This document shows positions 3,752 to 33,805 of a DNA stretch of 64,000 nucleotides, piece after piece. Both the position numbers and the translations under genes were made by a program. Location: IMG/VR virus record IMGVR_UViG_3300032240_002557, positions 35,913-99,912 of that record; one strand, 5' to 3'. Numbering within the stretch: position 1 is the stretch's first letter; each line of letters opens with the position of its first letter. The stretch is from a virus. The notes beneath the pieces were generated by a model. It was not told the DNA's origin, did not search any database, and saw only the letters and a program-made list of their open reading frames with translations.

Positions 3752-5935
3752 CTACGACAGAACTGAGACAAATTTCTTTCTAAAAGCGTCTATATCATCA
3801 TTTACCCCGCCATACCAAGTTGACAATTTACTTGCTAAATGCTTATCTAAAGATTTTGAATATACTGTCTTGTAAGCTTTACTTAAGATGCTAATTGAAT
3901 CACTGCTCCAATTAATACAATCCTTACATGCTCTGCCTGGGTCAGAATCGAATTTACCAAAAGCAACAGCGTATTTAACAGGAACACCCGATTTCATCAG
4001 AATTGATAACCTATCTTTACTGCCATCGTTACCCTTGAATTCATCATTCTTTATGCTATAAAATCCTAGCATCTTATCAAACAATCTTAATGCCGTTCCG
4101 TTTGCATAGAACCTAATTCCATTTGCTGTTGCTACTGCCATTTGACCATTCTTGCCATAATCTGGATTTTCCGTTGCTCCTATCTCTTTAAGTTCTTTAA
4201 CTGCTTGTTCTTTAGACCATTCTTGTTTTGCTTTAGCAACTGCATCATCGATCTGCTTCTTAACAGAGCCTGAAGAAATCTTTGGTGCAGCTTTCATGAT
4301 TTCTTTAGCGTTCTTATTAAGAGTGCTTTTTGCTGCTTTAACATCTTCTTTTGTTGTTGGCTTAGGGCCATCACCGCTGGTTCTTCCAACAGAAGCTTCT
4401 GCAGCTTTCAGATTGAATTCTTCCGAAACAGAAAAGGACTCTTTTAATTTATCGTCATGTGATGAAATCTTATCTATTAATTCTTGCGTGATATCACTAG
4501 ATTTATCCTTAAGCTCAAATCCATTTTTTAGATATTTAATAAGAGCATCTGTTGATTTTCCAAAAATGCCATCTGTACCGTATTTAGCAAATTTGTCATA
4601 TTCTTCAGATTTTCCTTTCAATCCCTTCATTTTGTCAATTGTCAGTTTTTGAAATTTCTTAATGTTATCCTTATCCTTGCTTCCTCTTTTGATTGGTTCT
4701 TTTATCTGAAGATCACTCTTAGTCGTCCCGCCATCTTTCTTACCTGCTTCTTCCTCCTTTTTCTTAGCATCCTCTGCTTGTTTCTTTGCAGTATCAACTT
4801 GGAGTTTAATTTTATAATTATTCATAGCAGTATCTGCCTCAATCTGTAAAGCCTTCTTAGCTCCTTCTGCTCTGTCTAAATGATCTTGCAAAGTAGGGAC
4901 TGCGATTAATACATTAGAATAATCCGCTGATGCTTGTACTTCTGATTTATATGCTGTATTGAACTCTTCTAATTCGTTATTAAACAATGCAACAACAGCA
5001 TTTAATCTCTCTCTTTCAGCCCCCCAATTAACACCCTTTGGATCGATCCCTTCACCAAATTTAGTTTCAAGCGAATTAACTCTCTTGTAAATATTATTGA
5101 AAGCAGCTTCTTTATCTAAAGCTTTTAAATTTCTTTCACCTGGATTATTTCTAGCACTTGCTATTGTGTTCATTACAGAATCAAGTCTAGCTTTTAAAGA
5201 TTCAATATTTGTAATAAAATCTTTTTTATCCCTGTTCGTTTTTCTGTCCTCCTTAGATCCAATTACAAAATCAAAAATACCTTCGTTTACTATTTTAGAA
5301 TATGTTTTAAAATCAACGCAGATGCTGCTATTAGAAAGATGCTCTAAAACGTTATCTGAATTGTATGAAACATCCTGATATGCAGATTCTTGAATTTTTA
5401 TATCGTCGGAAAAAGCCTTGATATATTTTTGAAGAGCTAATTGTACTTCATCAGTCTGCTGTCCTATCACATCTCCAACCTCTTTTGCTTTTTTGGTAAT
5501 ATCATCTATTGCAGCAGTTTCTTCTGCTACCATTTTATTGAACTCTGAAAGCCATTCTTCAAATATTTTAGGATCATATTCTTTCTCTTGAGCAATCTCT
5601 TTTTTAAATCGATCATACTCAGCAACTATACCAGGTAAAACAACACTATTAACCTGAATATCTACGTTTTTAACAGTATCAATTTTAGCTCCAATTGCAG
5701 CTAAATTTGTTTTAAAAGATCTTCTAAAATCCCTTGCAACTTTAGTCGGCGGGTACGTAGACACTGCATATCCGAAATTGCTGATCAATTCTTGAGTTAT
5801 CTTGATCATAGTTCTTGCATAAGCTACATAGCCAAGTCCTTTATCAACGCTTGCTTCAGTAATGCTAGGGTGTACGTAACCTTCAGCTTTTTTTACAAGG
5901 CTTTCAAATAGTGGATTTACGATTTCGTTTCTCAT
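3752..5935 (-). CDS. Capsid-associated protein with internal protease-site motif and peptidoglycan-binding-like segment
   Basis: 727 aa, highly charged and predicted largely helical. Around residue 216-219 it contains VNE-G within TYSKIVNEGIFDF, closely matching TFSK-like sites in neighbouring genes and resembling the T4 gp21 cleavage consensus [I/L]-X-E. Residues about 345-400 are a coiled coil rich in Lys/Glu/Ala. Residues about 408-472 end in DGIFGKSTDALIKYL, the signature of a PG_binding_1-like fold. The last 150 residues contain a CKDC pair (near 670) and no domain I recognise. It is the last gene of the head operon and overlaps the 286-aa gene by ATGA. Inference: a packaged internal head protein, perhaps injected, that is processed into two pieces. 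Confidence 0.6.
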   Translation of the reverse strand: MRNEIVNPLFESLVKKAEGYVHPSITEASVDKGLGYVAYARTMIKITQELISNFGYAVSTYPPTKVARDFRRSFKTNLAAIGAKIDTVKNVDIQVNSVVLPGIVAEYDRFKKEIAQEKEYDPKIFEEWLSEFNKMVAEETAAIDDITKKAKEVGDVIGQQTDEVQLALQKYIKAFSDDIKIQESAYQDVSYNSDNVLEHLSNSSICVDFKTYSKIVNEGIFDFVIGSKEDRKTNRDKKDFITNIESLKARLDSVMNTIASARNNPGERNLKALDKEAAFNNIYKRVNSLETKFGEGIDPKGVNWGAERERLNAVVALFNNELEEFNTAYKSEVQASADYSNVLIAVPTLQDHLDRAEGAKKALQIEADTAMNNYKIKLQVDTAKKQAEDAKKKEEEAGKKDGGTTKSDLQIKEPIKRGSKDKDNIKKFQKLTIDKMKGLKGKSEEYDKFAKYGTDGIFGKSTDALIKYLKNGFELKDKSSDITQELIDKISSHDDKLKESFSVSEEFNLKAAEASVGRTSGDGPKPTTKEDVKAAKSTLNKNAKEIMKAAPKISSGSVKKQIDDAVAKAKQEWSKEQAVKELKEIGATENPDYGKNGQMAVATANGIRFYANGTALRLFDKMLGFYSIKNDEFKGNDGSKDRLSILMKSGVPVKYAVAFGKFDSDPGRACKDCINWSSDSISILSKAYKTVYSKSLDKHLASKLSTWYGGVNDDIDAFRKKFVSVLS

Positions 5936-6792
5936 TGTATTGTTCTTTTTACTTTCATTTTAAGTACGGATAACTTGTTGTTTAAATCAAGTAATGCTCT
6001 TTTATGTGCATCATTTAATTTATTTATTTGTTCTTCTGATAATCTATAAGAAGGTATATCACCACCCCTATAGGCTTTAGTTTTCAAAGATTTAAGATAC
6101 ATGATCTTTTCTTTATGCTTAGCATCAAAATCAACTTTCATAATTTGACCATCTTCAAGCATTTTTGCTAAATCTTTCTTAGGTAATGAATTGATGTCTT
6201 GAATGAATTCATTCAGAGGTTTATCAAACATACCCATAGTATATTCATCGTAATCTTCGTATGAAAATTCTCTATCCGAAAAACTTGGTCTAGAATTAAC
6301 TTTCTGAGCTTGATCGTCCAGCTCTTTCCAGTGATTATAAAATTGTTCTTCATAATTATAATCTTTAAATCTTTTAGATTTTTCGTATGCATATTGAGCT
6401 ATTCTAGAATCTGCCTGAGCTTTCTCTTTATTATAAAAGGCTATTAGATCTGCATTCTTTTTGCATATTCTAGCAGCTTGATTTCCTAGAACCTTTACCT
6501 CTGCTGATTTTGCTGATTTTAGAGCATCTAATGCTCTTCTTGCCATAAATCCTTTATGCTTTGCATCGGTCATTTCTACAGGATTTCCTTTCCTCTGAGA
6601 TTCACTAGAGAATACTATATAATTCAATTCATCAGATTGATCTAAGAATTTCTTTTCAAGCGCTTCCATATTAGAAATAAGGGCTGAAAGCTTTTGCTTG
6701 TCACCTCTAATAAACGAAGCAGCACCGCCTATAAGATCTTTTAATATGCCTTCGTTTATTCTACTTGATATGAAGTCTGAGTATTTCTTCAT
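5932..6792 (-). CDS. Putative internal head protein with N-terminal capsid-targeting sequence
   Basis: 286 aa. The first residues MKKYSDFISSRINEG resemble T4 internal protein leaders (MKTYQEFI-E), with a predicted prohead-protease cut after Glu14 (I-N-E|G). The rest is Lys/Glu-rich and helical with no recognised domain. It lies between two other proteins bearing the same INEG motif, overlaps the downstream 727-aa gene by 4 bases and follows the 389-aa gene by 2 bases. What is known: T4 internal proteins are packaged, trimmed and injected. What is inferred: the same fate here. Confidence 0.6.
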   Translation of the reverse strand: MKKYSDFISSRINEGILKDLIGGAASFIRGDKQKLSALISNMEALEKKFLDQSDELNYIVFSSESQRKGNPVEMTDAKHKGFMARRALDALKSAKSAEVKVLGNQAARICKKNADLIAFYNKEKAQADSRIAQYAYEKSKRFKDYNYEEQFYNHWKELDDQAQKVNSRPSFSDREFSYEDYDEYTMGMFDKPLNEFIQDINSLPKKDLAKMLEDGQIMKVDFDAKHKEKIMYLKSLKTKAYRGGDIPSYRLSEEQINKLNDAHKRALLDLNNKLSVLKMKVKRTIQ

Positions 6793-6794
6793 TA

Positions 6795-7964
6795 TTACGC
6801 AGCTTGCTTAATTTTTTCTTCAACTTCTGCCAAAACCCCTTCAATATCCGATGCCTCTCTGTAGATATTATCTTTATAATCTTTTATACTATCAGGATTG
6901 TCTGCATTAGGTGTATTCTTAACTGGATACTCAATAAATTTCAATCTACTTACTCTTCTTTCAGCTTCTTTCAGTTTTGTTAGACATTTATCCTTAATCT
7001 GAACGTTTTCATTATCTGCTGTCTTAACTACTGATATTTTAGAAATTGCTATGTTCATCAGATTCATACAAATCTTTTTAAGATCGTCGAATGTTCTTTC
7101 TCTGTTTCTGTATTTATTAATTCCCCAGGCTTTAGTCTCAACAGATTTTTTCATCTCTTCAGATTCTTTCTTAATAAAATCGCTCAATTCTTTAACTGAT
7201 GCTAGGATCTCTTTTGAATAAGTCTCAAACACATTCTTAATTTTCTCAGAAGGCATTTTAGTAGTTTCATCTTTAGCTCCTAAATCTGTTTTGATCTTGT
7301 TTAAATCGTCTTGTGATTTTTTAAGGTCTTCTTCTGCTTTTTTAGGATCGCCTAACATATCCTGTATGCCTTTTAAGTACCCTTCTTCGTCAGAGGCAGC
7401 AACTAATTTCTTTTTAAATTCTGCTCTCATCTTCTTAGTCTCTACTGAATCCTCTGCTCTCTTTAAATTGTAATACTCAGATTTTCTATTATTCTTCTTT
7501 GTTAGAATATTCACTTGTTTTTCTAATTCATCCATAATAGAATTATGCGATGATACTAAATCTTTTAATAACTTTTGGACTTTAACAAGTTTAACCCGAA
7601 TCGAATCAAGTTCTGTTTTATCAGCTTTATCCATTCTTAGCTGAGCAAGTGCAGAGCTTAGCTTATAAAATTTATTCTCTGTTTCATGCTCGTCCTTAAT
7701 GAACTTGATCTCTTCATCTTTCATTTGCTGAAGGATTTTGTCTATCTTACCTATATCACCTCCTAAATTCTTGGAAAGAAAATTCATAATTTTATCCCCA
7801 ATACCCTCGTTAATTCTATAAAGATTTTCACAAAGTACATCTTCATCAACTTTTGAATATTTACCGTTCATCAACTTCATCTTGGCAATATCAACGTTAC
7901 CGTATGATTCAATGATTGCTTTTTTACAATCTTCGTAAAAATTAAAATTTTCTAATAATTCCAT
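6795..7964 (-). CDS. Putative capsid-associated coiled-coil protein with INEG cleavage motif
   Basis: 389 aa, about 30% charged, dominated by coiled coil (residues about 75-180 and 185-280). It has RINEGIGDKIM at 50-60, giving a predicted prohead-protease cut after Glu53. It is the first gene of a three-gene unit (389, 286 and 727 aa), preceded by a GATATATA promoter motif 16 bases upstream and separated from the capsid gene by a terminator. No domain assignment. A role in the prohead core or as a packaged protein is inferred from the motif and position. Confidence 0.55.
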   Translation of the reverse strand: MELLENFNFYEDCKKAIIESYGNVDIAKMKLMNGKYSKVDEDVLCENLYRINEGIGDKIMNFLSKNLGGDIGKIDKILQQMKDEEIKFIKDEHETENKFYKLSSALAQLRMDKADKTELDSIRVKLVKVQKLLKDLVSSHNSIMDELEKQVNILTKKNNRKSEYYNLKRAEDSVETKKMRAEFKKKLVAASDEEGYLKGIQDMLGDPKKAEEDLKKSQDDLNKIKTDLGAKDETTKMPSEKIKNVFETYSKEILASVKELSDFIKKESEEMKKSVETKAWGINKYRNRERTFDDLKKICMNLMNIAISKISVVKTADNENVQIKDKCLTKLKEAERRVSRLKFIEYPVKNTPNADNPDSIKDYKDNIYREASDIEGVLAEVEEKIKQAA

Positions 7965-7980
7965 CTTACAACTTTTTCTT

Positions 7981-8064: not shown

Positions 8065-9807
8065 TTAAGCGATACCGCCTGCTGGCACTTGAGCGAAGAA
8101 AGTCAAGTACATAGTTTGAGGGTGGTGTCCAGCCTCTACTAATGCATATCTTGATTTTACTGCGATCTTTGGTGACATTGTACCTTCAGAGATAGTCTGA
8201 ATTGATTCAGCCATCATGTAAGGCATAAATTTGATACCTGGTTCGTCATCAGCACCTTTTCTTCCAATCAATACTCTCGTATCTCCGAAAGACATGTTTT
8301 GATCAACATAAACAGTCATACCAGCGATTGAACCAACTGGGTATAAAGTACCGTTATTTTGAGTTAACGTGTTTGTGAAAGGAGCGAATGTGAATTGGCT
8401 GATATCTTGTAAAGCAGAAGCTACTTGAGAGTTAGTAACGATGAAGTTAGCAGGTCCTCTTCTTCCTCTGTTTGCTACTACGTTAGCAGCAGCTAAGATT
8501 CTTGAGAATAATCTTCTTTGAATAGTTGATTGGTTCTCGTATCCGCCTGAAGCAGGTCCATCAGGTTGGTTGATAGTAACTGATCCGTTATCCTTACCGA
8601 TGTAAGACTTATCGTTACCAGATCCACCGATCTCTAATGTGATGTTTAATGAGTTGTTAGATGCACCACCTAATTCAGTGTTTGCAAACTCATAGTGGTT
8701 AGACCATCCTAAAGCAAATGCTCTAGATAAGATGTGCTTGTTAATAGCTTGAGAAACCTCGTTAACAAGTGCGTTCTCGATCATAGAAACTACGTCGATA
8801 CCGAATTGCTTGTTCAAATCTTGGATTTGCTCAGTAGTAACAGAAGCAGCAACTTGGAATGTACCAGCCTCTACAAACTTAGTGAATGTAGAAAGACCTA
8901 ATGACTTGAAGTAAGTGCTTTCTGCAGTTCCTCTTGACATTGGATCGTAAGCCTTAGTACCATCTACGTATGGTCCTTGCCATGCTGCTGTGTTATCTAA
9001 ACCAGCACCAGTAAATCCTTGTACGTGATCTTCTAAAGTTTTAACTAAAGTAGCCGCGCCATTTGAATAACCTGCTGTTGCAGAAGCTGTGAAGCTTGAA
9101 CCGCCCCAAGTACCTGAATAGATAACAGAGTTAGCGTTAACTGCATCAGCGATTGAATAACCAGCAGATAATGCAGTAACTTGGAAAATAGGGAAACCGT
9201 CAATTCTTGAATTACCGATGAACTTAGCAACTAATTTGCTAGTACCACCTGTAACTGATACAGAACCTGATAATCCGCTAGCACCGATCAAATAGTTTGT
9301 ACCAACTGTTAAACCAACAACTGGAGAAGCTACTGATGTAGGAACTTTGATTAAATCAGGAGCGTTAGCTGTGTTAGGAGATGTAGTATCAGTACCGGTT
9401 AATTTACCGCCTGCATATACATAATCTAAGTAAGATAATACGCCTGTAGGACCAGACATTGGGATAACTGGAACGATATCAAAACCTACTGTTTTAGCAG
9501 CTACTTGAATAGCTAAAGGTAAAAGAGAAGGGAATTTATCGCCAGAACCAAGACCTGTTCCAGAATAAGAACCGCCAGCATAGAAACCAGCAGCACCACC
9601 GTTCAAACCTACGTTTGAAGCTGGAGATACTTGGCCCATACCGTTTAATACGCCTAGAGAGTTATACGCTCCGGCAGATTCGTTTAGAGAGTGATAGTGG
9701 CAATATGTTGTTAACCAGTCTAATTTTCCTCTCTCTTGAATACCTGTTTTGCTCTCTAAGATAGGAGCCCAGGTTTCATAGATTTCATGTTTGTTAATTA
9801 GTTGCAT
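8065..9807 (-). CDS. gp23: Major capsid protein, T4 gp23-like
   Basis: 580 aa. The C-terminal half carries the gp23 family signature: RRLFSRILAAANVVANRGRR, NFIVTNSQVASAL, LIGRKGADDEPGIKF and a final ARVALVEAGHHPQTMYLTF-like stretch (here SRYALVEAGHHPQTMYLTF). The N-terminus has LNE-S at residues 41-44, equivalent to the T4 gp23 processing site (FLTE-A), so the mature protein probably starts at Ser44. A Gly/Ser/Thr-rich region at about 160-250 may be an inserted surface domain. It lies 13 bases downstream of the protease-scaffold gene, as gp23 follows gp22 in T4, and is closed by a strong terminator. No separate late motif is visible before its ATG. Confidence 0.92.
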   Translation of the reverse strand: MQLINKHEIYETWAPILESKTGIQERGKLDWLTTYCHYHSLNESAGAYNSLGVLNGMGQVSPASNVGLNGGAAGFYAGGSYSGTGLGSGDKFPSLLPLAIQVAAKTVGFDIVPVIPMSGPTGVLSYLDYVYAGGKLTGTDTTSPNTANAPDLIKVPTSVASPVVGLTVGTNYLIGASGLSGSVSVTGGTSKLVAKFIGNSRIDGFPIFQVTALSAGYSIADAVNANSVIYSGTWGGSSFTASATAGYSNGAATLVKTLEDHVQGFTGAGLDNTAAWQGPYVDGTKAYDPMSRGTAESTYFKSLGLSTFTKFVEAGTFQVAASVTTEQIQDLNKQFGIDVVSMIENALVNEVSQAINKHILSRAFALGWSNHYEFANTELGGASNNSLNITLEIGGSGNDKSYIGKDNGSVTINQPDGPASGGYENQSTIQRRLFSRILAAANVVANRGRRGPANFIVTNSQVASALQDISQFTFAPFTNTLTQNNGTLYPVGSIAGMTVYVDQNMSFGDTRVLIGRKGADDEPGIKFMPYMMAESIQTISEGTMSPKIAVKSRYALVEAGHHPQTMYLTFFAQVPAGGIA

Positions 9808-9820: not shown

Positions 9821-11893
9821 TTATTTTTTAAATCTAACTTCTAGTGCTTCTGAAAGATTTTTTAAATACTCGCTGGAAACACCTTTTGGTTGATTCTCTT
9901 GTTTTTGGGATTCGTCTATTCTTTCGACGTTTGCCTTAGATGCACCGATACCTCTTGTTGCCCAGAAATTCTGGATTTGATAAGGTGTGTCTAATTTATA
10001 GAATTTGCTCTGTGCCATGATTGAAGCTTTTTGACCCTCATTCATTGACTCCCAAGAGTTTCTATATTTTTCTGGCATAAGATCTAGGAATTTTTCACCT
10101 GATTGATTTTGCTCATTTAAGGTTTTACCCATGATATCAATTACCTCTTTTTCGGATGAGTAATTGCTCTCGTTAAGTGCTTTTGCTGCCTTTTGTTTTT
10201 GGCCTTCGTGCATTGCTAAGAATTGATCTTGATTCTCTTTGCTCATAAGCTTTAAGAAAGGATAATTTTTTTGCTCTGCTATTTGTTCTGTCTTTTGTTT
10301 ATTGACAGTTTCTAACAAGTTGTCTATTTTAGAAGAAATTCCAGTGTAATCACCAGCAAATCCTGAAGTGTTTGCACTTTCAGAAATAGCTTTAGTTACT
10401 GCTTCTTTAACTTCTTTTGTTCCGTTAGCTGTATTCACTGTTTCAGCAATGTATTCAGCATAACTAATATTGTTAGCTAATTTCTCAGCTAAGTATTCAC
10501 TGTAATGAAGTGATTTGTCTAAATTCTCACCTAAGTAATCAGAGTAAGCTAAACCTTTATCTAGGTTTTCTGCTAAGTACTCAGAATAAGAGATATTCTT
10601 ATCTAAGTTCTCTGCTAGGTATTCAGAATAAGCTAAACCTTTATCTAGGTTTTCTGCTAAGTACTCAGAATAAGAGATATTCTTATCTAAGTTCTCTGCT
10701 AAGTATTCTGCATAAGAAATGTTCTTATCTAAATTCTCAGCTACGTATTCTGTATATTTAATGTTTTTGTCTACGTTCTCTGCTACGTATTCTGCATAAG
10801 CAATAGATTGATCAACTTTCTCTGTTAAACCTTTAACTGCTGACATGTTGCTATCAACATTCTCTGCAATATACTCAGAATAAGAAATGTTATTGTCTAA
10901 ATGCTCTGCTAAATATTTAGCATAAGAAATAGATTTATCAAGATTTTCAGCAAGATATTTTGAATATGAAGTTGTGTCTTCTAAGCTTTCAGCTAAGTAT
11001 TCGCCATACTTAATAGAAGCTTCAAGGTTTTCTGCCAAATAATCAGCATATCTCTCTAACTTTTCTACTCTTTCCTCAAGGGAAGAACTTGCTTGTGTTT
11101 TAGAAGATTCTTTAACGCCTCTTAATGATTCAATAGACCCTTTAATAGTGTCCATTTCTTTTTTAATTAGCTTAGAATATCCATTCATTTCTTCCGCTGT
11201 AACGAAATTATTTTCCATGATTAAATTCTTATTTGGCTCCTTATTTAGAAGCTTTTGTATCTTTTCTTGATCTTTTATTCTATATATCTTAAAATTAGAG
11301 TTTTCCTCTATTCCTAAGCTTTCATTCATTAAAGGAAGACCTTTTAAAATAGATTCATTTTTAATTTTTTCACTAACTTCGTGTCCAAGACTTTCATATA
11401 CTCTTTCTAATTGAGCATTTTCAAATCCAGGGTCAGCAACTAGATCGTAAGTAAAGATCTTCTTGATTTGTACTTTTTTGTTCTCTAACACATTACCAGC
11501 TGCTCTTGAAGAGATTGAAACTGGAATACCTGCATCAACTAAAGATTTAGCAATTTTACCTGCTGGTGTATCTAAAAGTCTTACTTTAATCCTTAATGTT
11601 CTATCGTTTTGATCATAGTTAAGTTCTTCAACTAGGTGAGAGATGTTCTTCAAAGAAACATCAAACTCTTTTGGGTGATCTAATTCACCTACTAATCTTT
11701 TTTGCTCTATCTTTTCTTTTAAATATTGCAAATGTGGAAGATACTCTCTTTCCTCGTAGATTCTTTGATTAGAATTCTCCTTACCGAAAACTGCTGCTAT
11801 CCCCTCAAGGAAATAGTCATTACCTGATTTTTCAGTCTTCAGGTTTTGCGAAGATTTTTCTAAGACTAAAACGAATTCGTTATTAAGGTTCAT
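9821..11893 (-). CDS. gp21: Prohead protease fused to scaffold core (gp21-gp22-like)
   Basis: 690 aa. Residues 1-200 are a T4 prohead protease (peptidase S77 family): GELDHP supplies the catalytic His73 and SISSRAAG the Ser near 128, with LLDTPAGK between. T4 gp21 is only about 212 aa. Here the frame continues into a scaffold-like region: about 15 copies of a 14-residue helical repeat (consensus YSEYLAENLDKNIS) at 283-492, then a Gln/Lys-rich tail containing several N-E sites (ALNES, TLNEQ, SMNEG) that could be cut by the protease, as T4 gp22 is. A Met at 226 (LIMENNF, codon at 11216-11218) could start a nested scaffold-only product. A GATATATA motif lies 20 bases upstream. Confidence 0.88.
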   Translation of the reverse strand: MNLNNEFVLVLEKSSQNLKTEKSGNDYFLEGIAAVFGKENSNQRIYEEREYLPHLQYLKEKIEQKRLVGELDHPKEFDVSLKNISHLVEELNYDQNDRTLRIKVRLLDTPAGKIAKSLVDAGIPVSISSRAAGNVLENKKVQIKKIFTYDLVADPGFENAQLERVYESLGHEVSEKIKNESILKGLPLMNESLGIEENSNFKIYRIKDQEKIQKLLNKEPNKNLIMENNFVTAEEMNGYSKLIKKEMDTIKGSIESLRGVKESSKTQASSSLEERVEKLERYADYLAENLEASIKYGEYLAESLEDTTSYSKYLAENLDKSISYAKYLAEHLDNNISYSEYIAENVDSNMSAVKGLTEKVDQSIAYAEYVAENVDKNIKYTEYVAENLDKNISYAEYLAENLDKNISYSEYLAENLDKGLAYSEYLAENLDKNISYSEYLAENLDKGLAYSDYLGENLDKSLHYSEYLAEKLANNISYAEYIAETVNTANGTKEVKEAVTKAISESANTSGFAGDYTGISSKIDNLLETVNKQKTEQIAEQKNYPFLKLMSKENQDQFLAMHEGQKQKAAKALNESNYSSEKEVIDIMGKTLNEQNQSGEKFLDLMPEKYRNSWESMNEGQKASIMAQSKFYKLDTPYQIQNFWATRGIGASKANVERIDESQKQENQPKGVSSEYLKNLSEALEVRFKK
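10424..11047 (-). repeat. Tandem 42-bp (14-residue) coding repeats in the scaffold region
   Basis: About 15 in-frame copies encode Y-[SA]-E-Y-[LV]-A-E-N-[LV]-D-K-x-[IL]-x. Two adjacent double units are nearly identical in DNA: about 73 bases at 10545-10617 recur at 10629-10701, offset 84, indicating a recent tandem duplication. The period equals two heptads, as expected for a coiled-coil rod. Confidence 0.95.
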
Positions 11894-11939: not shown

Positions 11940-14531
11940 TTATGGTTTAGGCATATTTGATGCCTCGGGTGCTTTCGAAGTAGATTTTTTGCCTTCTTCT
12001 TCGCTCTCTCCTTTTTTAACTATTTTAACACCCTGGTTAGCTAGATCAAGTTGTTCTTCTGTAATATCTTTGATATTTTCTGCTAGTTTACTCTCATTTG
12101 AGTTCAATCTATCAATAGCTTCTTTAACAAGTGTTAATCCATCAGAATAATTAACAGTATCTCCTTCCTCTAAACTTTTTGCATCAAAATCTGGGAAATT
12201 GTGGCAGTCTCTTTTTAGAGTTGAATGAATTTCTTCTATCTCTGATTCAAAAGTTTGCTCTTCACTTTTTGCGTACCTTTCTTTAAAATCTGCCCAAGCA
12301 GATATTGCTGCTGTTCTTTCTTTATTAGCGGTCCATGCACCTTTTAGTAAACAAAGTGTAGCCATAATTGCTTGAAGATCTTCTCTTGAAACGAATCCGT
12401 CTATTGTATTAATCATTCCTCTTGTTATCTTAAGCATACCTGCTCTTGAAATAAATCCATTACCAACTGATATTGCTACCTTTGTTCTGGTTCCCCACCA
12501 AGCTGTTCCCATTCCTGATAATGCGCCTGCTCCTACTGCTATAGGTACTGATCCAACTGCAAGTGCTGCTCCCCCACTAGCTGCTGCAGCTACCGTTGAG
12601 CCTAATCCAAGTGAAAGAGCTAAACCCCCTGTTGATGCTGCTGCAGAAGTTGCTGCTGCTCCCATTAAAGCACCAGATCCTGTTGTTACCGCTCCTATTG
12701 CACCGCCTACGCCTGTTGCTGTTCCTGCAGCTACTGCTGGAACTGCAGCACCTAATGTAAGTGCACTAGCAATTACAATTGCTGTTACAGCTCCTGTAAC
12801 TTCAGCAACCTGTAAGGCTGCCTCACCCGATGATTCGTCATAATTAATGACATAAATTCCGTTGTCTGCTGGTTTTAATCCTTGCCATTTCTTTTCCTCA
12901 ACTTTCTTATTATCATCATTATCTACTATTACGTCTTGAATTATTTTATCATCTTTATAAGTAGAACATACAGCATCAGCTATAGAAAGTTTATTTTTAT
13001 CGCTACTTCCTTCACCACTTACCTGAGGCTTGCTACCGACATTTTTTGCTTTATCAACTAAAGATTTTTCAGCATCTTTCACTGCGTCAAACACGCCTTC
13101 ATTAAGTATCTTAGAGAAACTATCAAAAGAAACGACTGATGTTCCTTCATTATATTCTGCTTCAAATATTTTGCTTTCTAATACTTTACTGTAATCTAAA
13201 GAATCTTTTACTGGTTTAACAGGTGCATCAATTGTTTGTATTACTCTTTGTCCTCCTACGATCTTATTGTGCATGTCCTGTGTTAATTCACCGGTTGCAC
13301 TAAATGCGGATGATTTTGTCAAGTAAGCATAATAAATATTAGCTAACTTAGATGTTACCTTACCGTATTTACCATCTGCTCCTCCTGCTTTGTTAATCAA
13401 TTCAGCAACACAAGGTCCAAGCTTCATTAAAGCCTCTTGTACCTCAACTACAACATCGCATTTAGTACTACTAATTTGAATAGGGAAAGCACAATCTGTT
13501 GTTGTAACAACATTATCATCTCCAGTTTTCTTCTTCTTTTTCTTCTTTTTGTTCGGATCAACTGTTGTTTCTGCTCCTTCTACACCTGTACTTGACTGTG
13601 CTAAAGCAACGCATTTTCCTTTATTAGGATCGTATGCTTGACCAACAGGACAAATAACTATAGGTTGTGGAGGTGTAGGAACGTTTCCTATTCTATATTT
13701 AAGCTTATTAAATTCTTCTCTCTGTCTTGTTATCTCTGTAAGAATGTTTTGTACTTGTACTTTAAAATCCGATCTTTTTAAATTTCCAGAAGCTGTAGGA
13801 ACCTTACCAGCTCCGAATAAACCTTTATTACCACCAATTGGCTGAATTTTTCTAGCTTTATCTAAGAGCTGTTGTGCTTGGTCTGAAAATCTTTGGATGT
13901 CTGCATTTCCTGCATATGCCTTATTGCCCATTGCTGCTGAGGTTTCACCAGCAAACGATGTTGCAGCATCTAAAGCATTCTTAGCATACTGTAAGAATTT
14001 ATTGTCTACTCTAACGTCTTGGGTTTGTCCTTCCTCACCGGTTAAGTCTGTTTGTTGCTCAGAAAGATATTTAGTTAAAAGACTTTCGTTTTGTTGAAGT
14101 TGAGCTTTATTAGCTTGTAAAGCAGAGATTGTAGTTCCTGCGTAAGCATTCATATCATCTAAAACCTTTTTAAAGTTTTTAGCGTCTTCCCCAACTAAAG
14201 GTTTTAATTGATCAAATAAAGTCCCTAAATATGTCTTTGTTTGTTGATAAGCAGCTTCTTGAGCTTTATCTTTCATAGCGTATTCGTCAATCTTCTTAAT
14301 AAATTCTTGTCTAAGACCATCGATAGAGCTAACTTGTAATAGTTTATCTACAAAAACTTTAAATCCATCAGGAGTTTTAATTGACTCGTCTGATCCCATA
14401 AGAATAACATTAACAAGAGTATCATAGATAGTTCTGCTAATTAATCCTGGGTTGTTTTTGGTCTCCTGTTCGTATAACTCTTTCTTTAGAGATTCGAAAA
14501 TAGGATTGTATCCGTTGTAAATTCCTGACAT
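11940..14531 (-). CDS. Large capsid-associated protein with hydrophobic Gly/Ala core and internal cleavage motif
   Basis: 863 aa, no family recognised. In order: helical N-terminus (1-280); a Pro-rich linker and CPVGQAYDPNKGKC loop near 294-307; a run of nine Lys at about 328-335; a segment at about 355-405 ending DGKYGKVTSKLANIYYAYL that resembles a peptidoglycan-binding fold; FSKILNEGVFD at 472-482, a predicted prohead-protease site after Glu478; a long Ala/Gly-rich hydrophobic stretch at about 580-675 that could insert in a membrane; and a charged tail. The FSKILNEGVFD motif matches YSKIVNEGIFD in the 727-aa protein. Inference: a packaged protein that might be ejected and interact with the cell envelope. 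A tape-measure role is less likely because it sits in the head cluster. Confidence 0.55.
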   Translation of the reverse strand: MSGIYNGYNPIFESLKKELYEQETKNNPGLISRTIYDTLVNVILMGSDESIKTPDGFKVFVDKLLQVSSIDGLRQEFIKKIDEYAMKDKAQEAAYQQTKTYLGTLFDQLKPLVGEDAKNFKKVLDDMNAYAGTTISALQANKAQLQQNESLLTKYLSEQQTDLTGEEGQTQDVRVDNKFLQYAKNALDAATSFAGETSAAMGNKAYAGNADIQRFSDQAQQLLDKARKIQPIGGNKGLFGAGKVPTASGNLKRSDFKVQVQNILTEITRQREEFNKLKYRIGNVPTPPQPIVICPVGQAYDPNKGKCVALAQSSTGVEGAETTVDPNKKKKKKKKTGDDNVVTTTDCAFPIQISSTKCDVVVEVQEALMKLGPCVAELINKAGGADGKYGKVTSKLANIYYAYLTKSSAFSATGELTQDMHNKIVGGQRVIQTIDAPVKPVKDSLDYSKVLESKIFEAEYNEGTSVVSFDSFSKILNEGVFDAVKDAEKSLVDKAKNVGSKPQVSGEGSSDKNKLSIADAVCSTYKDDKIIQDVIVDNDDNKKVEEKKWQGLKPADNGIYVINYDESSGEAALQVAEVTGAVTAIVIASALTLGAAVPAVAAGTATGVGGAIGAVTTGSGALMGAAATSAAASTGGLALSLGLGSTVAAAASGGAALAVGSVPIAVGAGALSGMGTAWWGTRTKVAISVGNGFISRAGMLKITRGMINTIDGFVSREDLQAIMATLCLLKGAWTANKERTAAISAWADFKERYAKSEEQTFESEIEEIHSTLKRDCHNFPDFDAKSLEEGDTVNYSDGLTLVKEAIDRLNSNESKLAENIKDITEEQLDLANQGVKIVKKGESEEEGKKSTSKAPEASNMPKP

Positions 14532-14542: not shown

Positions 14543-15295
14543 TTATTCGCTATAAATTTTGTCGTAAGAAGCTGATATTAGGTCGATCAGTTTCTGTATA
14601 TATCCTTCGTTTCTGAGCTTTTTGAATACCAAATTCTCTACGGAGAATTCCCCCCTCTCTGCTAATCCTTCTTTACGCATCTTCATGATCTGGCTTTTAA
14701 CTTTTTCTGAGTGTTCGTATAATTCTCTAGGGGTAATATCCGATTGATCGCTAGTCCCGTTTAGTAATGCCTGTAATTGATTTACATCATTAACAATACC
14801 TTCAAATTTGGTCTGTACGTCTCTCTCGTCTATCTGTGGAGGATTGTACTTAGGTACCCTGATCCAATCATTGTTTAATAGGGAGAATAGACCTGATGCA
14901 ACGTGTTGCTCTCTAATATCCTGGAGATAAAGCTCAACATCGTGCCCTCTTATAATTACGTTATGCCTTAGATTCCAAATGAATCTTTGACCGTCTACTG
15001 ATTTTTTAACTAAATCTATGTCCGGATTAATTTTAGAGAAGTCTATTAGAACATGAACGTCAAGATCTGATTTTTCTGTCCAATTATAATTTGCAAGAGA
15101 TCCTGTAAGTTGGATGTCTTCAATAGGAATGTCAAGTTTAAAAACTGCGTAAAATTCTTCAGCAATCTTAAGAAGCTTAGCTCTGACGCTTTGGTCAAAG
15201 TTTAAATTCTCCCAAAAGAGTGTATTCAATTCCCCTTGATAGAATTGATCCTCATTTAAAACCCAATTAGTAAAATTTTTGATGCGACTACCCAC
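14543..15295 (-). CDS. Nucleotidyltransferase-fold protein with capsid-targeting-like N-terminus
   Basis: 250 aa. LTGSLANYNW followed by SDLDVHVLIDF (about 61-85) is the GS...DxD signature of Pol-beta-type nucleotidyltransferases, so metal-binding Asp residues are present. The leader NFTNWVLNEDQ contains L-N-E at 13-15, matching the phage's own prohead-protease site, so it may be packaged. The start is GTG at 15293-15295: no ATG precedes the conserved region, and a GATATATA motif lies 16 bases upstream. It heads the transcript running into the head genes. The substrate (nucleotide, tRNA, drug-like molecule or protein) is not deducible. Confidence 0.7.
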   Translation of the reverse strand: MGSRIKNFTNWVLNEDQFYQGELNTLFWENLNFDQSVRAKLLKIAEEFYAVFKLDIPIEDIQLTGSLANYNWTEKSDLDVHVLIDFSKINPDIDLVKKSVDGQRFIWNLRHNVIIRGHDVELYLQDIREQHVASGLFSLLNNDWIRVPKYNPPQIDERDVQTKFEGIVNDVNQLQALLNGTSDQSDITPRELYEHSEKVKSQIMKMRKEGLAERGEFSVENLVFKKLRNEGYIQKLIDLISASYDKIYSE

Positions 15296-16902: not shown

Positions 16903-17673
16903 CTATGGTTCAGGAAGGCGATTGTCGAAGACAAAATCAAGTTCTAGCCCAAAGGGTCTAGTATCTTCCCCGTCCAATTTAGTGCTGCCTGGAAGATATA
17001 CAAAGATAGGATTAACAGTTCTTTTCCATGTTGATGCAGCAAGGAAAAGTGATTCATTAAGTGTTAAATTTCCTTGGTTAGTGGGATATGCTGTGGATCT
17101 AAAAACAATTGGGATTTTAATTCTGTAAAAAACCCCAGGTAGTAAATCCTTTACCGAGAAAAGACTTGGCTTTTCGTCATTCACAACTGCAAGTCTTTTA
17201 ATATCTTCTTGAAGAAAAAGTGCTTCTACTTTTTTACAAAAATCGTCCATTGTTCCCCTTCTGTCACCTTTTGCCCCACCAATATGAAGAACGATTGGCA
17301 TTTCTTGATATTCTTTGACATCAAAGTTTTTTATGAATTCTAAACAGAGAACAATTTGGGAGTGAGCATCAGTAATCTCTTCGTCAGAATCTGATGTTAA
17401 ATACTTTTTGCCTTTTATGTAAAATGCTACCCTAACACCTTTGTCGTTAATATAATTATTCATAGACGATTTTGCGCTCTCCGATACATTGAAATCAAGC
17501 ACATCAAAATCATCATCTGTTATCTCAAAAACGAAGCATTCATATCCTATATTAATTCCTTCTGAAATCTTATTAAGAACAAAATCACAGAATGGTATAG
17601 TATAAGATATTTTCTTCCCCTTCTTAGAAGCAAGAGGAAATCTGACTAATATGCCGTTCTTTTGGTTACTCAT
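16903..17673 (-). CDS. UvsE/UVDE-like TIM-barrel protein, probably lacking several metal ligands
   Basis: 256 aa. The centre reads IVLHIGGAKGDRRGTMDDFCKK, then RLAVVNDEKPSLFSVKDLL, then IPIVFRSTAYPTNQGN and ASTWKR. This order parallels the UV-damage endonuclease family (IHxGGxYGDK, RLxLENDD...DLL, PxVFDxHHH, TW). The His of the first block is kept, but the Glu of LEND is Val and the VFD-HH ligand positions read VFRSTAY, so known catalytic metal ligands appear to be replaced. It may be a degenerate or re-purposed paralogue. It sits between the Fpg/Nei gene and a DUF115-like gene. Assignment rests on remembered motifs and is moderate; otherwise hypothetical. Confidence 0.5.
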   Translation of the reverse strand: MSNQKNGILVRFPLASKKGKKISYTIPFCDFVLNKISEGINIGYECFVFEITDDDFDVLDFNVSESAKSSMNNYINDKGVRVAFYIKGKKYLTSDSDEEITDAHSQIVLCLEFIKNFDVKEYQEMPIVLHIGGAKGDRRGTMDDFCKKVEALFLQEDIKRLAVVNDEKPSLFSVKDLLPGVFYRIKIPIVFRSTAYPTNQGNLTLNESLFLAASTWKRTVNPIFVYLPGSTKLDGEDTRPFGLELDFVFDNRLPEP

Positions 17674-18384: not shown

Positions 18385-19302
18385 TTATCTTTGAGGTAGG
18401 TATTCACTCATTGATGGAACTAATTCGTCTGCAGCTTCACCGTAAGAAACACCATGCTTCTTCATAAAGTTGGAAGCTATGATTTTATATGCTTCTTTCA
18501 GTCCTTTGTTTCTAAGGATCTGAGCAGCTAAAAGATCACTATACTTTTCGTCAATACTTTTATTTTTGGTTAAAGCTTTTGCAGCTTCTACTGCTTCTAT
18601 CACTGTTAAATGGTTGTCATTAAACTTAGAAAAATTTTCATCATTTCTGTTGATATAGATTGCTTTATTTTCGGGAACCGAATAAATTGGGCCTAATTTT
18701 TTAAAATTCTCTATATGATGTTCATAATCAGGATGATTAGTGTCTATTAAAACAACTTGAATATTTGGGTCAATAAATCCAGGCCTTTCCATAACGCCAG
18801 TTCCTTCCTGAAGTAATAGATCTGTTTTTATGTTAGCACTCTTTGATTCTAAAGATCCCCAGATAAAATTACCATTGTTATATTTTAACGCAGTCATAAA
18901 TTTTTGTTTATTACTTATAGTTGATGCTCCCATTTCTTTTTTTAATATATTACCATTATCTGAGTGTGGTTCTACTGCATAGCTAGGAACTGTATAGATT
19001 TTACTCGTTTTAATACTTCTTACTTTTAAGATAGTATCCTTTCCGTTTGCAGTCCTTGATGTTGAAACAACCTCAGCGATAATTTTATTTTTATTAACGC
19101 CTCTTAGTTGTGCTTTAACAATATCCCCTGTTTGGTATTGTTCTCCCTTAACATAATCGTATGGATTTACGTCTCTGCCAACTGCTTTAGACAAATCATC
19201 GAAAGATTTATATTTAACTTTAAATACACCGTTTGAGCTATTAAATCCGTCACCGGAAAAAGTCTGCGCAAATTGTTCGTTTATTTTTTTGATCTTTGTC
19301 AT
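18385..19302 (-). CDS. Hypothetical protein with INE-type leader
   Basis: 305 aa, not recognised. The first residues MTKIKKINEQF contain I-N-E at 7-9, like the predicted prohead-protease sites elsewhere. Residues about 45-115 look beta-rich (GDIVKAQLRGVNKNKIIAEVV), possibly a small barrel. The C-terminal third has HLTVIEAVEAAKAL and DEKYSDLLAAQILRNKG, reminiscent of zinc-peptidase-like phage domains but without HExxH, so no activity is claimed. It overlaps the upstream 175-aa gene by 4 bases. Confidence 0.5.
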   Translation of the reverse strand: MTKIKKINEQFAQTFSGDGFNSSNGVFKVKYKSFDDLSKAVGRDVNPYDYVKGEQYQTGDIVKAQLRGVNKNKIIAEVVSTSRTANGKDTILKVRSIKTSKIYTVPSYAVEPHSDNGNILKKEMGASTISNKQKFMTALKYNNGNFIWGSLESKSANIKTDLLLQEGTGVMERPGFIDPNIQVVLIDTNHPDYEHHIENFKKLGPIYSVPENKAIYINRNDENFSKFNDNHLTVIEAVEAAKALTKNKSIDEKYSDLLAAQILRNKGLKEAYKIIASNFMKKHGVSYGEAADELVPSMSEYLPQR

Positions 19303-28234: not shown

Positions 28235-29830
28235 TTAAAGTTTGATTTCTCCTTCGGTTTCAGCTGCTGCTTCGCCACCGCCTGCAGCTGCTTCTTCCTC
28301 TTTCTTTTTCTTAGTTAATTCTTTTGCTTTTTCGTTTGCTATCTTGTCATCGTCAGTCATTCCTAAATATTTGTCTAAAACATATTTCAGTGAGAAATAA
28401 GGCTTTCCGTCTGCATCTAGTAGTCCTGCTATTTTAGATACTTGATCCTTCCTAGCATTCAGGATTTCCATGTATCTTGTTTCAGCAAAAGAGTTATCCT
28501 TAACATAATCTAAACCAAATTGACTCTTAATCATAAAATCCTTAGAATGCTCTGGAAAATCTAAACAGAACTGAATCCAAAGAGGTTTTAAAAGTATGTC
28601 TTGGAAAATTGATCTTAATCTAGTTATAAATTTAAAGAATCTTATTTCTTCCTGGTCTAGTCCTTCTGCGTTACCGCTAAAAGTTCCCATTGTTCCCCTA
28701 TCATCCCTATCGAATCTAGAATAAGGAATTTTAGAATCTAATTTCAATTTATCAGCAAAATATGCTAATGCTTTAAGGTCACTAAAAGGCGTAGCATCTC
28801 CGCTACCTGTTAGAGGTGTAATATCCGGCGTTCCGTTAGGTGTTGATGGCATTAAATAGTTCTTAAAGAACTGAATATTTGGTTTACCGTTTACAAATAA
28901 TTCTCCGCTATCCTGATCTAATCTAATATCTTCCTTATAGATGCTCATTAATTCAGCTAAGCTCTGTTTTGCCTTTTGCGGGGATTTAGTTCCTATTGGA
29001 ACTGTCATAGTCATACGGAAAGAAGAATTCATTACGTTCCAGATAACCCTAGTGTGCTCCATAATTCTAAGGAGATTAAAAGATCTAATTAATCTTTCAA
29101 CGTAGCTAACCCTAGAAATAGTATTTCCTTTAGCGTATGAAATATAAAGAATTTGAGAATCGTAAAGTTTTCTTGTTAAAGAAGGATTGTCAGGATATTG
29201 AATCCAGATCTCAACGAAATTACCGTCTATTTGTTTTTCAACGGAAGGGAGTAAAGACTGAGGATCTAATTCTTTAAATCCGATAATATTTTTACCTCTG
29301 CTATCAAAAACTATTTCAAAAGCAAGTATACCATCTATTAATAGACTTCTAAAGAAATGCCATCCTGAAATATCTTCATTGAATCCAAAAAGATTATAGA
29401 TCTGTTTATACCTCTCGTGGATTTTTGCTTCTTTTTCCTCGCCAAGGCCTTTAATATCAGTATTAGTGAAATATGAGAAAAAATTCTTATCGTCATAAAC
29501 AATTGCCTCGTCACAAACTGTATCTAGGATGAATTCAATCTCCGGATTAAGTGCAAAGTTTCTTAGGTAAGTTTTTTTGTTGGCATAATCCCTATCAAAG
29601 TATGCGATATACTGCTTAGCGGTTGTATCTGCTTTCTTTAATGCATAAAGTAGGCTTTCGTCAGTAATTCCCCCTGTTCTAATAACTGCGCTTTCTGAGG
29701 GCCCAATGGCTTGAGAGTTTTTAACTACCATGTCCCCGTAGCTCATCCCAAAGGATCCTATCCTCTTAAGGGAGTTCATCAAATTACTGAAAAACGGGTT
29801 GGTTCTATTATCTTCTAAAAATCCTGCCAT
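28235..29830 (-). CDS. gp20: Portal protein paralogue 1, gp20-like
   Basis: 531 aa. Same family blocks as the downstream copy, including AIVYDDKNF, GFKELDPQSLLPS, SYVERLIRSFNLLRIMEHTR and MSIYKEDI. The C-terminus is a short charged Ala/Glu/Lys tail. It lies 2 bases before paralogue 2 and is preceded by GATATATA 15 bases upstream, so this copy is likely the first translated. Given the closer fit to a plain T4-type portal end, it is the more probable standard portal. Confidence 0.9.
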   Translation of the reverse strand: MAGFLEDNRTNPFFSNLMNSLKRIGSFGMSYGDMVVKNSQAIGPSESAVIRTGGITDESLLYALKKADTTAKQYIAYFDRDYANKKTYLRNFALNPEIEFILDTVCDEAIVYDDKNFFSYFTNTDIKGLGEEKEAKIHERYKQIYNLFGFNEDISGWHFFRSLLIDGILAFEIVFDSRGKNIIGFKELDPQSLLPSVEKQIDGNFVEIWIQYPDNPSLTRKLYDSQILYISYAKGNTISRVSYVERLIRSFNLLRIMEHTRVIWNVMNSSFRMTMTVPIGTKSPQKAKQSLAELMSIYKEDIRLDQDSGELFVNGKPNIQFFKNYLMPSTPNGTPDITPLTGSGDATPFSDLKALAYFADKLKLDSKIPYSRFDRDDRGTMGTFSGNAEGLDQEEIRFFKFITRLRSIFQDILLKPLWIQFCLDFPEHSKDFMIKSQFGLDYVKDNSFAETRYMEILNARKDQVSKIAGLLDADGKPYFSLKYVLDKYLGMTDDDKIANEKAKELTKKKKEEEAAAGGGEAAAETEGEIKL

Positions 29831-31245: not shown

Positions 31246-31442
31246 TATGGTTGTTGGAAATTATTTTCTAGACTGCTGATTTGTCTTTCAACATCGTCTT
31301 CTAGGACAGCAAGATTTTTTAATGAATCTTCAATGGCCTTCAATCCTATTTTATGATTAAAATGGCTACTTGTTTCTAATTCTTTTAATTTACCTATGGT
31401 TTGTTTCAGTTCCTCCTGAAAATGAAAAAGTTCGTTACCCAT
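31245..31442 (-). CDS. Small coiled-coil hypothetical protein
   Basis: 65 aa, Leu/Glu/Lys-rich, almost entirely heptad-like (ELKQTIGKLKELE). Encoded directly upstream of the gp55-like sigma with a 1-base overlap (the ATG of one within the stop of the other), which argues that it is real and translated. No homologue recognised. A sigma partner (T4 uses gp33 as co-activator) is conceivable from position alone. Confidence 0.55.
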   Translation of the reverse strand: MGNELFHFQEELKQTIGKLKELETSSHFNHKIGLKAIEDSLKNLAVLEDDVERQISSLENNFQQP

Positions 31443-31483
31443 TTCTTCGGCAACGAACTCTTCACTATGTTCTAGAATTGTTT

Positions 31484-33805
31484 TTACTTTTTTTTTGCAG
31501 CTGGAGCTTTAGCTAAAGTTGCTCTGTTCAATGGCTCGTGATCTTTCTTACCATTTTTATTATGATTACCTGGTGCTTCAGCTAATTGTGCCTTCTTAGT
31601 TCCAGTTTTTTTAACCTTCAATTTTTTAGCTTTAGGAGCTGGTGCTTTCTCGTAATTAACATTATTTTGAGATTCTGCTAGATTATGATCATTTAAATCT
31701 TCAATAAACTTAGAAGCGTTTGGTGCAGTACCACCTGGTGCATCAGCTAAATTAAAATTTTTCTCATTTTGAATAAACTTCTTATCTTTTCCAGCTTTTG
31801 CGCTAGGTGCTTCTGATAACTCATGATTGCCACTTACTCCTTTAGGATCTTTTGATTTAGAAGAAGTTCTTGCTGGAGCTTCCGCTAATGAATGATCTTT
31901 AAGATTTTCTACGTCTGCTGCAGAACCTGAAGCTTTACCCCCTGGTGCTTTAGCTAAATTTGCATTCTTATTGTTTTCAACAAATTTCTTATCTTTTCCA
32001 GATTTTCCTAATGGTGCTTCTGCTAATTCCATATCAGCATCTAAACCTTCGTTAGTTTCATCATCTTCTGTTAAATCACCAGCTACTTCTAATTTAGCGT
32101 TGCTGATTTCATCAGATATATTGATAACATCGTTGTAGAAAAATTCGCCTGTTCTTCCGTTCTCAAACATTACTGTGTAAGTTTTAGAATTACCATTTAC
32201 ACCTACTACTGTTCCTTTTTCTCCATTTCTTTTAACTTTAACTTCTGTATTAATTTCGTATCCTTCGCTTTCGTTTACTTTACTAATTTTCTTTGCACCT
32301 TTTTCAAATCTTTCTATTTCAACATTGATTTGATTCCATTTTGCTTTTAATTCTGTTGATTCTTTAACCAACATATCTTTTGCTTCTTTAACTTCTTCAG
32401 AATCAGCTAAACGTGGATTAAGTTCGATTGCTTTATTAATCTTGTTCATTTCGTTTTCAACGATTGATAGATTAGCCTTAATCGCCTCTTTGTCATTCTT
32501 CATGATAGAAAGAACTTGAGCTTCTTTTTCTAAAACGTTAGTCATAGATTCAGAAATATCAAATCCTAAGAATTCTTTAACTAAATTAACTGCTTGGCTT
32601 CCGTTTCCTTCTAAAAGTTCATTCTTCTTCATAGCAGGATTTACTCTGTGAACATAAACTTTTTCACCAAATTTAAAGATGTTAGCTTCTACGCCTTCAT
32701 AAACTCTAGAAACGATTTTCTTACCAAAATCAACTTCAGAAAGATAATCAGCTGCAGCTACTACTTCAGTTGCTTGTTCTACAACAGCAGCAGAAGATTG
32801 AAACGAATTTCTCAATTCGAAAGAAAGAACAAATCCTAATTTTTCTTGAGGAATTCTTTTTTCGTTTAAGAATACTGCTTTAGTATCTGTTTCGCTTTCA
32901 AAAACAACAGATAATTTATTTTTACCAATATACATGTCTAATCCGCTTTCGTTAATTTTAACGTTAGGATTAGAAAGTGCTAAAACTGCTTTTAAGAATT
33001 TACCAGGTAATTTAGATGCGTCTGCTCTTTCTAAAACAGATACGCCATTCTCTGTTGCTCTAAAGAACCTATTAGAAGTAACAAAGATTGAAGAATTCTC
33101 AGCAACTAAGCTAGGAGCTATAATGCTCTTAACATCACAATTTTCAGATTTAACTTTGATGCTAAATTTGTTTTGGTTGTTGCTTTCTAAATAGTTAATT
33201 CTTTCAACTAAAGTTCTAACAGTAGGATTGAATCCCCATTTGTTAAGACCTTTTAAAAGCTTTTCAGAAACTTTATCATCTGATGTTAACCAGTTTCTCA
33301 TTGCTTCTGTGATAGTAGAGAAAAGATCTTTACCGCCTGATCTATTGATTTCCTCAATAGCTTTAGCTACTTCAATTTCTCTTCTATTGCTCTCGTATGT
33401 TTTCTTAAGATTATCTAATGCATGTTTAGCATTTTTTTCCCAAGCAAAGTTTTCCAATTCTTGAATCATCCCCTCAATTAAGAATGCCTCTGAAATTCCT
33501 TTAATAGCAACGTGGTTGATGTATTTTTCTGCAAGTACTTTAGCTTCTGCAAGTTCAACAAAACTAGTTTGTTTTAATGCCATTGCAGTTTCAAGCACTC
33601 CAACAGAGAATGATGGCTTAACCATCTTAATATCTTCTGATGAGATTTGTTCTATTTCTTTTTGTCTGCCATCTACATAAGATCCAGCAGCACCTGGATT
33701 AAATCCTTGGTTTCCTCCCCAGCTCTCGTTAAGAAACGCTGCAGCAGCCTTGGCCTTTTCCATTTTTATCTGTGACAGATTATCGTCAAAGTTCATTTTA
33801 TCCAT
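31484..33805 (-). CDS. Head-associated protein with LAEAP repeats and predicted processing site
   Basis: 773 aa. FLNES at residues 24-28 gives a predicted prohead-protease cut after Glu27. Residues about 30-520 are helical and unassigned. Residues about 535-580 (VKVKRNGEKGTVVGVNG...FENGRTGEFF) look like a small KOW/SH3-like barrel. The last 180 residues are a basic low-complexity tail with repeated LAEAP/LAKAPGG motifs and about two copies of a ~70-residue unit. A GATATATA motif lies 22 bases upstream. Inference: a packaged or capsid-lining protein, the basic tail perhaps touching DNA. Confidence 0.6.
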   Translation of the reverse strand: MDKMNFDDNLSQIKMEKAKAAAAFLNESWGGNQGFNPGAAGSYVDGRQKEIEQISSEDIKMVKPSFSVGVLETAMALKQTSFVELAEAKVLAEKYINHVAIKGISEAFLIEGMIQELENFAWEKNAKHALDNLKKTYESNRREIEVAKAIEEINRSGGKDLFSTITEAMRNWLTSDDKVSEKLLKGLNKWGFNPTVRTLVERINYLESNNQNKFSIKVKSENCDVKSIIAPSLVAENSSIFVTSNRFFRATENGVSVLERADASKLPGKFLKAVLALSNPNVKINESGLDMYIGKNKLSVVFESETDTKAVFLNEKRIPQEKLGFVLSFELRNSFQSSAAVVEQATEVVAAADYLSEVDFGKKIVSRVYEGVEANIFKFGEKVYVHRVNPAMKKNELLEGNGSQAVNLVKEFLGFDISESMTNVLEKEAQVLSIMKNDKEAIKANLSIVENEMNKINKAIELNPRLADSEEVKEAKDMLVKESTELKAKWNQINVEIERFEKGAKKISKVNESEGYEINTEVKVKRNGEKGTVVGVNGNSKTYTVMFENGRTGEFFYNDVINISDEISNAKLEVAGDLTEDDETNEGLDADMELAEAPLGKSGKDKKFVENNKNANLAKAPGGKASGSAADVENLKDHSLAEAPARTSSKSKDPKGVSGNHELSEAPSAKAGKDKKFIQNEKNFNLADAPGGTAPNASKFIEDLNDHNLAESQNNVNYEKAPAPKAKKLKVKKTGTKKAQLAEAPGNHNKNGKKDHEPLNRATLAKAPAAKKK
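31487..32026 (-). repeat. LAxAP repeat region in the 773-aa protein
   Basis: Encodes repeats of the form LAEAP...GKDKKF(V/I)xNxxN...LA(K/D)APGG...ENL-DH-LAE. Two long units of about 70 residues plus shorter partial copies. The repeated strings are clear in translation and partly at DNA level. Confidence 0.85.

Follow-up and report, generated by a model that had tools for sequence, protein, structure and literature searches.

The locus examined here raises the question of how a huge phage might mark proteins for loading into its head. The capsid protein and several neighbouring gene products carry a short motif ending in glutamate, which in some of them closes a short N-terminal leader, and a protease of the prohead type is encoded in the same cluster. 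The window, that is, the whole 64,000-nucleotide stretch analysed, corresponds to positions 35913-99912 of a 99,912-base IMG/VR virus record (G000).

Phage type and prohead protease

The window's phage is of the far-T4 type and is related to Lak and other huge phages. It encodes a T4-type gene set comprising a gp23-family capsid protein, an S77 protease, two portal paralogues, terminase, sheath, and two tube proteins; on our reading of the translations, proteins of the gp46/47 and RecA types are encoded as well. The full-length portal paralogues lie side by side (26550-28232 and 28235-29830), and a gene for a UvdE-type UV endonuclease (16903-17673) is found amid the head genes. By capsid protein, the closest annotated records are a 462-kb uncultured phage (43%) and Prevotella Lak phages (43-44%), together with 635-735-kb uncultured phages, Tenacibaculum PTm1, Flavobacterium MaF61, and Sphingomonas PAU. 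A DNA-level search among phage records gave no relatives of the window. From IMG/VR, 80 relatives were retrieved at 63-86%, and the long relatives used were G001 (245 kb), G002 (434.5 kb), and G003 (348.6 kb).

The protease forms one chain with a scaffold tail (Table 1). It scores 34-36 bits against PF03420, for which the curated cut-off is 27, and H73 (GELDHP; motif GELxHP) and S128 (SISSR; motif SSR), presumably its catalytic residues, are invariant with T4 gp21 in an alignment of 13 sequences. At about residues 278-490, the tail is a tandem array of 14-residue units, about a dozen or more in number (SYSEYLAENLDKNI); this repeat recurs in relatives (76 units in 7 proteins) and is also borne by the protease-scaffold fusion of a 642-kb phage. 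The first-pass annotation had placed an [ILV]-N-E cleavage code several times in this tail. Two such sites, LNE-S at 573 and LNE-Q at 592, are indeed there, but the tail is made up mostly of [LIV]AE-N repeats and not of [ILV]NE. The 690-aa protein also holds MNE-S at 189 and MNE-G at 617.

Table 1. Features of the head gene region and the tagged Lak sigma factor; positions refer to the window unless another record is named
Feature	Position	Strand	Basis
727-aa protein, N-terminal LFE-S, internal VNE-G 216-219 (DNA 5279-5290)	3752..5935	-	
286-aa all-helical core-like protein, candidate removable leader	5932..6792	-	AlphaFold2 model
Leader MKKYSDFISSRINE plus P1' Gly, 286-aa protein (INE-G 12-15)	6748..6792	-	[ILVM]xE kept in family
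389-aa protein	6795..7964	-	BLAST matches in common with 286-aa protein (same relatives)
INE-G site (51-54), 389-aa protein	7803..7814	-	[ILVM]xE in 23/23 non-redundant orthologues, N in 14
Major capsid protein, gp23 family, 580 aa, N-terminal propeptide	8065..9807	-	Pfam Gp23 (PF07068) 2.2e-40; PHROG major head protein
Predicted cleavage site LNE-S, capsid residues 41-44	9676..9687	-	Conserved in homologues
S77 prohead protease (~residues 1-236) fused to scaffold tail, 690 aa	9821..11893	-	Pfam Peptidase_S77
LNE-S (573) and LNE-Q (592), scaffold tail	10109..10177	-	Read from translation
Scaffold tandem repeat, ~14 aa, (I)SYSEYLAENLDKN, limits approximate	10424..11062	-	Seen directly
863-aa protein, N-terminal IFE-S, internal LNE-G 476-479 (DNA 13095-13106)	11940..14531	-	
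Nucleotidyltransferase-like protein, 250 aa, leader GSRIKNFTNWVLNE	14543..15295	-	Weak NTP_transf_2 match
LNE-D site (13-16), nucleotidyltransferase	15248..15259	-	[ILVM]xE in 29/30 non-redundant orthologues, N in 10
305-aa protein, INE-Q 7-10 (DNA 19273-19284), weak candidate	18385..19302	-	Site kept in 30 orthologues
773-aa protein, LNE-S 25-28 (DNA 33722-33733), weak candidate	31484..33805	-	
Sigma-70 factor with Lak leader MKLNEKKALYESIMKSVSKTIRKKLNE	L153:13461-14474 = Lak-B5 193461-194474	-	Sigma70_r2 1.3e-11, TAG=Q

Predicted sites in capsid, core-like and other proteins

All eight sites that the first-pass annotation had named outside the scaffold tail are present at the residues given in Table 1, and its broader idea of a Glu-ending site common to capsid, core, and cargo-like proteins extends to relatives, far past the window. 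As a set the eight are uneven: those of the 305-aa and 773-aa proteins are weak, and the internal sites of the 727-aa and 863-aa proteins are kept in the nearest relatives only.

The profile of the capsid protein retrieves T4 gp23 from the PDB (2.3e-11), and its propeptide can be aligned with that of T4 gp23 (W13, E18). LNES is found in 81 of 88 homologues and the glutamate in 86, while E43 is invariant across 16 divergent capsid proteins with identity down to 28%; this conservation alone says little because much of the propeptide is itself conserved. The site does not match the T4 position: LNE-S43/44 lies some 15-20 aligned residues before T4 FLTE-A 65/66, and a propeptide cut at the T4 position is not a strict requirement of the gp23 family. 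An AlphaFold2 model of the capsid protein (pLDDT 46) was set aside.

Better evidence for the site comes from the alignment of the 286-aa protein family. Among 26 aligned members, with 16-43% identity to the window's protein (most 16-20%), the leader varies in length and sequence and its ending is always [ILVM]xE; E14 is one of only four invariant columns. The AlphaFold2 model of the window's protein (mean pLDDT 83.8) consists of long helices, with residues 1-27 below 50, and puts the site where confidence drops, between a short leader helix and a well-predicted helical body. The likeness of this leader to T4 targeting leaders, pointed out in the first-pass annotation, recurs in relatives with the glutamate fixed and the leader drifting.

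The remaining sites vary in reach. In the nucleotidyltransferase, the match to PHROG 36119 starts at residue 20, past the leader. Five near relatives of the 727-aa protein have [IV]NE-A at the internal site, and near orthologues of the 863-aa protein have LTE-A, LSE-A, or VSE-A. These two proteins also have NP[LI]FES in common at residues 5-15, a possible extra [LI]xE-S site. At the 305-aa site, the next residue is F or Y in most orthologues, which counts against the explanation preferred below, and the 773-aa site is kept in one close orthologue only (G001 141430-143679). A further clear case lies just outside the window in the same record (G000 34475-35194, 239 aa, VNE-A and INE-G).

The claim that the middle residue is fixed as Asn did not hold, since N occurs in 6/8 orthologues of the 286-aa protein, 14/23 of the 389-aa, 24/30 of the 305-aa, and 10/29 of the nucleotidyltransferase. 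Because orthologues vary at this position (including LTE, LSE, and VSE at the 863-aa site), the rule is better written as [ILV]-x-E with a strong preference for N. The S77 protease most likely cuts after Glu in this motif, with Asn preferred mid-site and a small residue next. Each scaffold repeat of about 14 residues holds [LIV]AE and could be cut likewise.

Whether the motif is equally common in non-structural proteins, a question raised at the outset, has a divided answer. Plain [ILV]NE occurs there too (16 in the 6,030 aa of the head segment, 26 in the 23,856 aa of the record outside it), whereas [ILV]NE with G, S, or A as the next residue clusters in the head segment (10 inside, 4 outside; about tenfold density). 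The binomial estimate of about 5e-5 that we derived from these counts is a guide only, because the finding was already known when the limits of the segment were set. Within the first 60 residues, [ILV]NE occurs in 6 of the 14 ORFs of the head segment and in 6 of the 76 remaining ones (Fisher p=0.003).

Leaders in relatives and in Lak and PAU phages

In G001, G002, and G003, many ORFs open with a leader of the form M-K-x-I-x-x-F-x-x-F-[IL]-N-E, after which S, A, or G is frequent; examples are MKHIHTFSQHINE-S, MNRIKDFLTFINE-A, and MQKILNFKGFINE-E. This strict pattern was written after seeing these three genomes and then counted in them, LR756500, crAss001, and phage G being counted afterwards; the expectation was taken from windows inside the same proteins. 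ORF calling was mechanical and will have placed some starts wrongly. Each relative genome encodes 8-24 leader-bearing proteins by the strict pattern: 24 against 1.0 expected in G002, 16 against 0.7 in G003, 8 against 0.7 in G001, and 12 against 1.7 in LR756500, where the leader takes the form MKYIKxYEDF[IL]NE. The controls have no excess (crAss001 1 against 0.3 expected, phage G 0). In the 99.9-kb record alone the count is 2 against 0.3, a small excess that weighs against the preferred explanation. When NE is not demanded, the leader helix is found 31 times against 1.1 expected in G002, 25 against 0.7 in G003, and 33 against 0.9 in LR756500. Where an [ILV]xE lies within 16 residues after this unselected helix, its middle residue is N in 33 of 62 cases; in internal control stretches, counted with a looser pattern, it is N in 26 of 372. 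The bodies behind the leaders are unrelated, with 1 alike pair of 276 in G002 and 0 of 120 in G003.

These counts bear on the reading of the motif as a chance or compositional pattern of an AT-rich genome. The commonness of plain [ILV]NE in non-head proteins speaks for it; the excess over the internal-window expectation, its lack in crAss001 and phage G, and near-identical leaders on unrelated bodies contradict it, and it is very improbable.

Inspection by eye of 37 orthologues in G002, G003, and LR756500, drawn from the terminase, portal, tail, replication, and repair genes, showed no strict leader. Among 191 orthologue pairs of G002 and G003, the leader is present in both members in 18 and in a single member in 8 and 13, which supports constraint, but the figure is inflated by homologous N-termini (gp46-like, sheath) that match the loose helix pattern. 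A resemblance of the leader's YSDF/YSEF, and of T4's leader, to the scaffold repeat unit YSEYLAEN was considered as a sign of scaffold mimicry. A position-specific score of the repeat, applied to N-termini, gave 2 against 0.9 expected in G000, 2 against 2.4 in G001, 9 against 5.2 in G002, and 3 against 3.7 in G003, with a modest excess in LR756500 (12 against 4.4). Mimicry was dropped because G000-G003 have no clear excess, and it is not claimed.

The Lak megaphages and Sphingomonas phage PAU resemble the window's clade in having a homologous capsid protein and protease and leaders ending in LNE, and differ from it in the leader sequences, which are lineage-specific (LYESIMKSVSKTVKKKLNE in Lak, LYExKLNE in PAU). 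In Lak-B5, with TAG read as Gln, about a dozen proteins carry (K)xLYESIMKSVSKTVKKKLNE, among them a lysozyme and a sigma-70 factor, and the Lak capsid protein (TAG=Q) has AKLNE-D, ending as the Lak leaders do. The sigma factor with its leader region is present in 15/15 Lak records. In Lak groups A and C the leader is KKALYNSLMEGISRSLRNTLNE, changed in sequence and kept in form, and sigma factors of other phages mostly align only from about residue 51-55.

In PAU, five proteins with MK[ST][IL]xxLYExKLNE are encoded in the head cluster, and two of them are annotated as internal capsid protein. The PAU protease gp151 has KKLYESIKSKILKR at its C-terminal end. PAU gp152 (L088 16910-17743), annotated as scaffolding, opens with MKTLTQLYEA, the PAU leader, and no repeat is visible in it; it may be a tagged internal protein rather than a scaffold. 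Two further Lak-B5 observations concern sequences of other placement or kind. The product of 198272-199624 (+), whose gene adjoins the tagged lysozyme gene, has a C-terminal tag, KKKKALYESIMSKVAKTIKRKLQLI, at residues 424-450 without an NE site, and a second short element, ESLFDD(x)DD, is shared by the products of several ORFs close to their N-termini (e.g., 73202-74242, 216970-217881, 60707-61945, and 495891-497366).

Candidate head targeting and tagged cargo

T4 gp21 cleaves after [L/I]-x-E, and the leaders of T4 internal proteins are capsid-targeting sequences; of their residues, 4 and 7 serve targeting and 8 and 10 serve processing (PMC9026906). The T4 IPII and IPIII leaders, read from the record, have the layout Ar-x-x-Ar-[IL]-x-E, as have the leaders here, and because of this layout and its known role in T4 we infer that the window's leader is head-targeting. 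In the window's phage and in related huge phages, the leaders are probably capsid-targeting propeptides of the T4 type that the S77 protease removes. The site-bearing proteins would then fall into two classes: shell and core proteins (capsid protein, scaffold, and the 286-aa and 389-aa proteins) and cargo proteins with a short N-terminal leader ending in the site. The leader would dock a cargo protein in the prohead core, the protease would clip it off and leave the mature cargo inside the head, and the cargo would be ejected together with the DNA. Related huge phages would follow the same scheme with lineage-specific leaders, which the strict pattern finds on as many as about 24 unrelated proteins per genome.

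The leaders could also be head-targeting and generally retained, with Asn-Glu serving as a helix cap that ends the targeting helix. The Lak C-terminal tag without NE and the end of PAU gp151 favour this, and targeting and NE are therefore separable. The residue after Glu, however, is S, G, or A in 70 of 139 leaders but in only 79 of 372 controls, the 286-aa family has kept its Glu invariant next to a drifting helix, and the S77 protease is encoded in the same cluster, so that general retention is improbable.

Most tagged proteins match no Pfam family. Those that do include a RimK-like ATP-grasp ligase in G002 and G003, an adenylate kinase in G003 with its ADK domain starting at residue 27, and an RNase_T exonuclease with its domain starting at residue 36, both past the leader, as well as CHAP, two SLT transglycosylases, OmpA, GDPD, and a Tlde1/YkuD match near the cut-off. 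MoxR-like AAA ATPases are tagged in G001 and G002. Several of the wall enzymes and binders (CHAP, SLT, OmpA, YkuD/Tlde1) could sit in tails, which is one reason to ask whether the leaders are tags for another destination, such as the tail or baseplate, the membrane, or an intracellular phage compartment, with NE as part of the tag and no protease site. The tagged genes are moreover dispersed over the genome, and in about 40% of the leader-helix proteins of G002 and G003 no [ILV]xE follows within 16 residues, a finding that counts against head targeting with cleavage. Wall hydrolases ejected by other phages are known, however, e.g., T7 gp16; the capsid protein and the adjoining core-like 286-aa and 389-aa proteins carry the same ending, and the PAU leaders, in the head cluster, include two on annotated internal capsid proteins. 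Another destination is accordingly unlikely, if less so than general retention.

Head targeting with cleavage would place these phages close to known systems. T4 gp21 and the targeting sequences of IPI, IPII, IPIII, and Alt are alike in the S77 protease, the [IL]-x-E site (cleavage here being predicted), and short N-terminal leaders in which two spaced aromatic residues precede the site. Unlike in T4, Asn is strongly preferred mid-site, protease and scaffold form one chain, the capsid site lies elsewhere, and the proteins that bear one leader family are unrelated and number up to about 24, with enzymes among them and, in Lak, a sigma factor. phiKZ gp175 (S/A/G-x-E) and SPN3US gp245 (A-x-E) are likewise Glu-directed prohead proteases with many head substrates, including ejected proteins. 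Most of their propeptides, however, are long (in SPN3US about 111-254 aa, with two of 20-24), whereas the leaders here are short and common to many proteins, and [ILV] occupies P3. Among open-licence papers, no virion proteome of Lak, PAU, or the other phages considered here was found, nor any published account of these leaders or of a packaged Lak sigma factor.

Little is known of what huge phages deliver into a cell along with their DNA, and for most of them a cultured host is lacking. Should the leader prove to be a head address, every phage in the group could have its packaged proteome read from its genome, and a defined list of first-minute effectors would be available for testing. On a wider reading, to which we give even chances, Lak and related huge phages load a large and diverse proteome by means of lineage-specific cleavable head tags. 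This would include, in Lak, a sigma-70 factor ejected with the genome that redirects host RNA polymerase at once and, in the window's clade, nucleotide- and peptide-ligating enzymes and wall hydrolases. A packaged sigma factor, if real, would suggest how Lak phages start transcription, and the tags could be used for loading large phage heads with proteins of choice.
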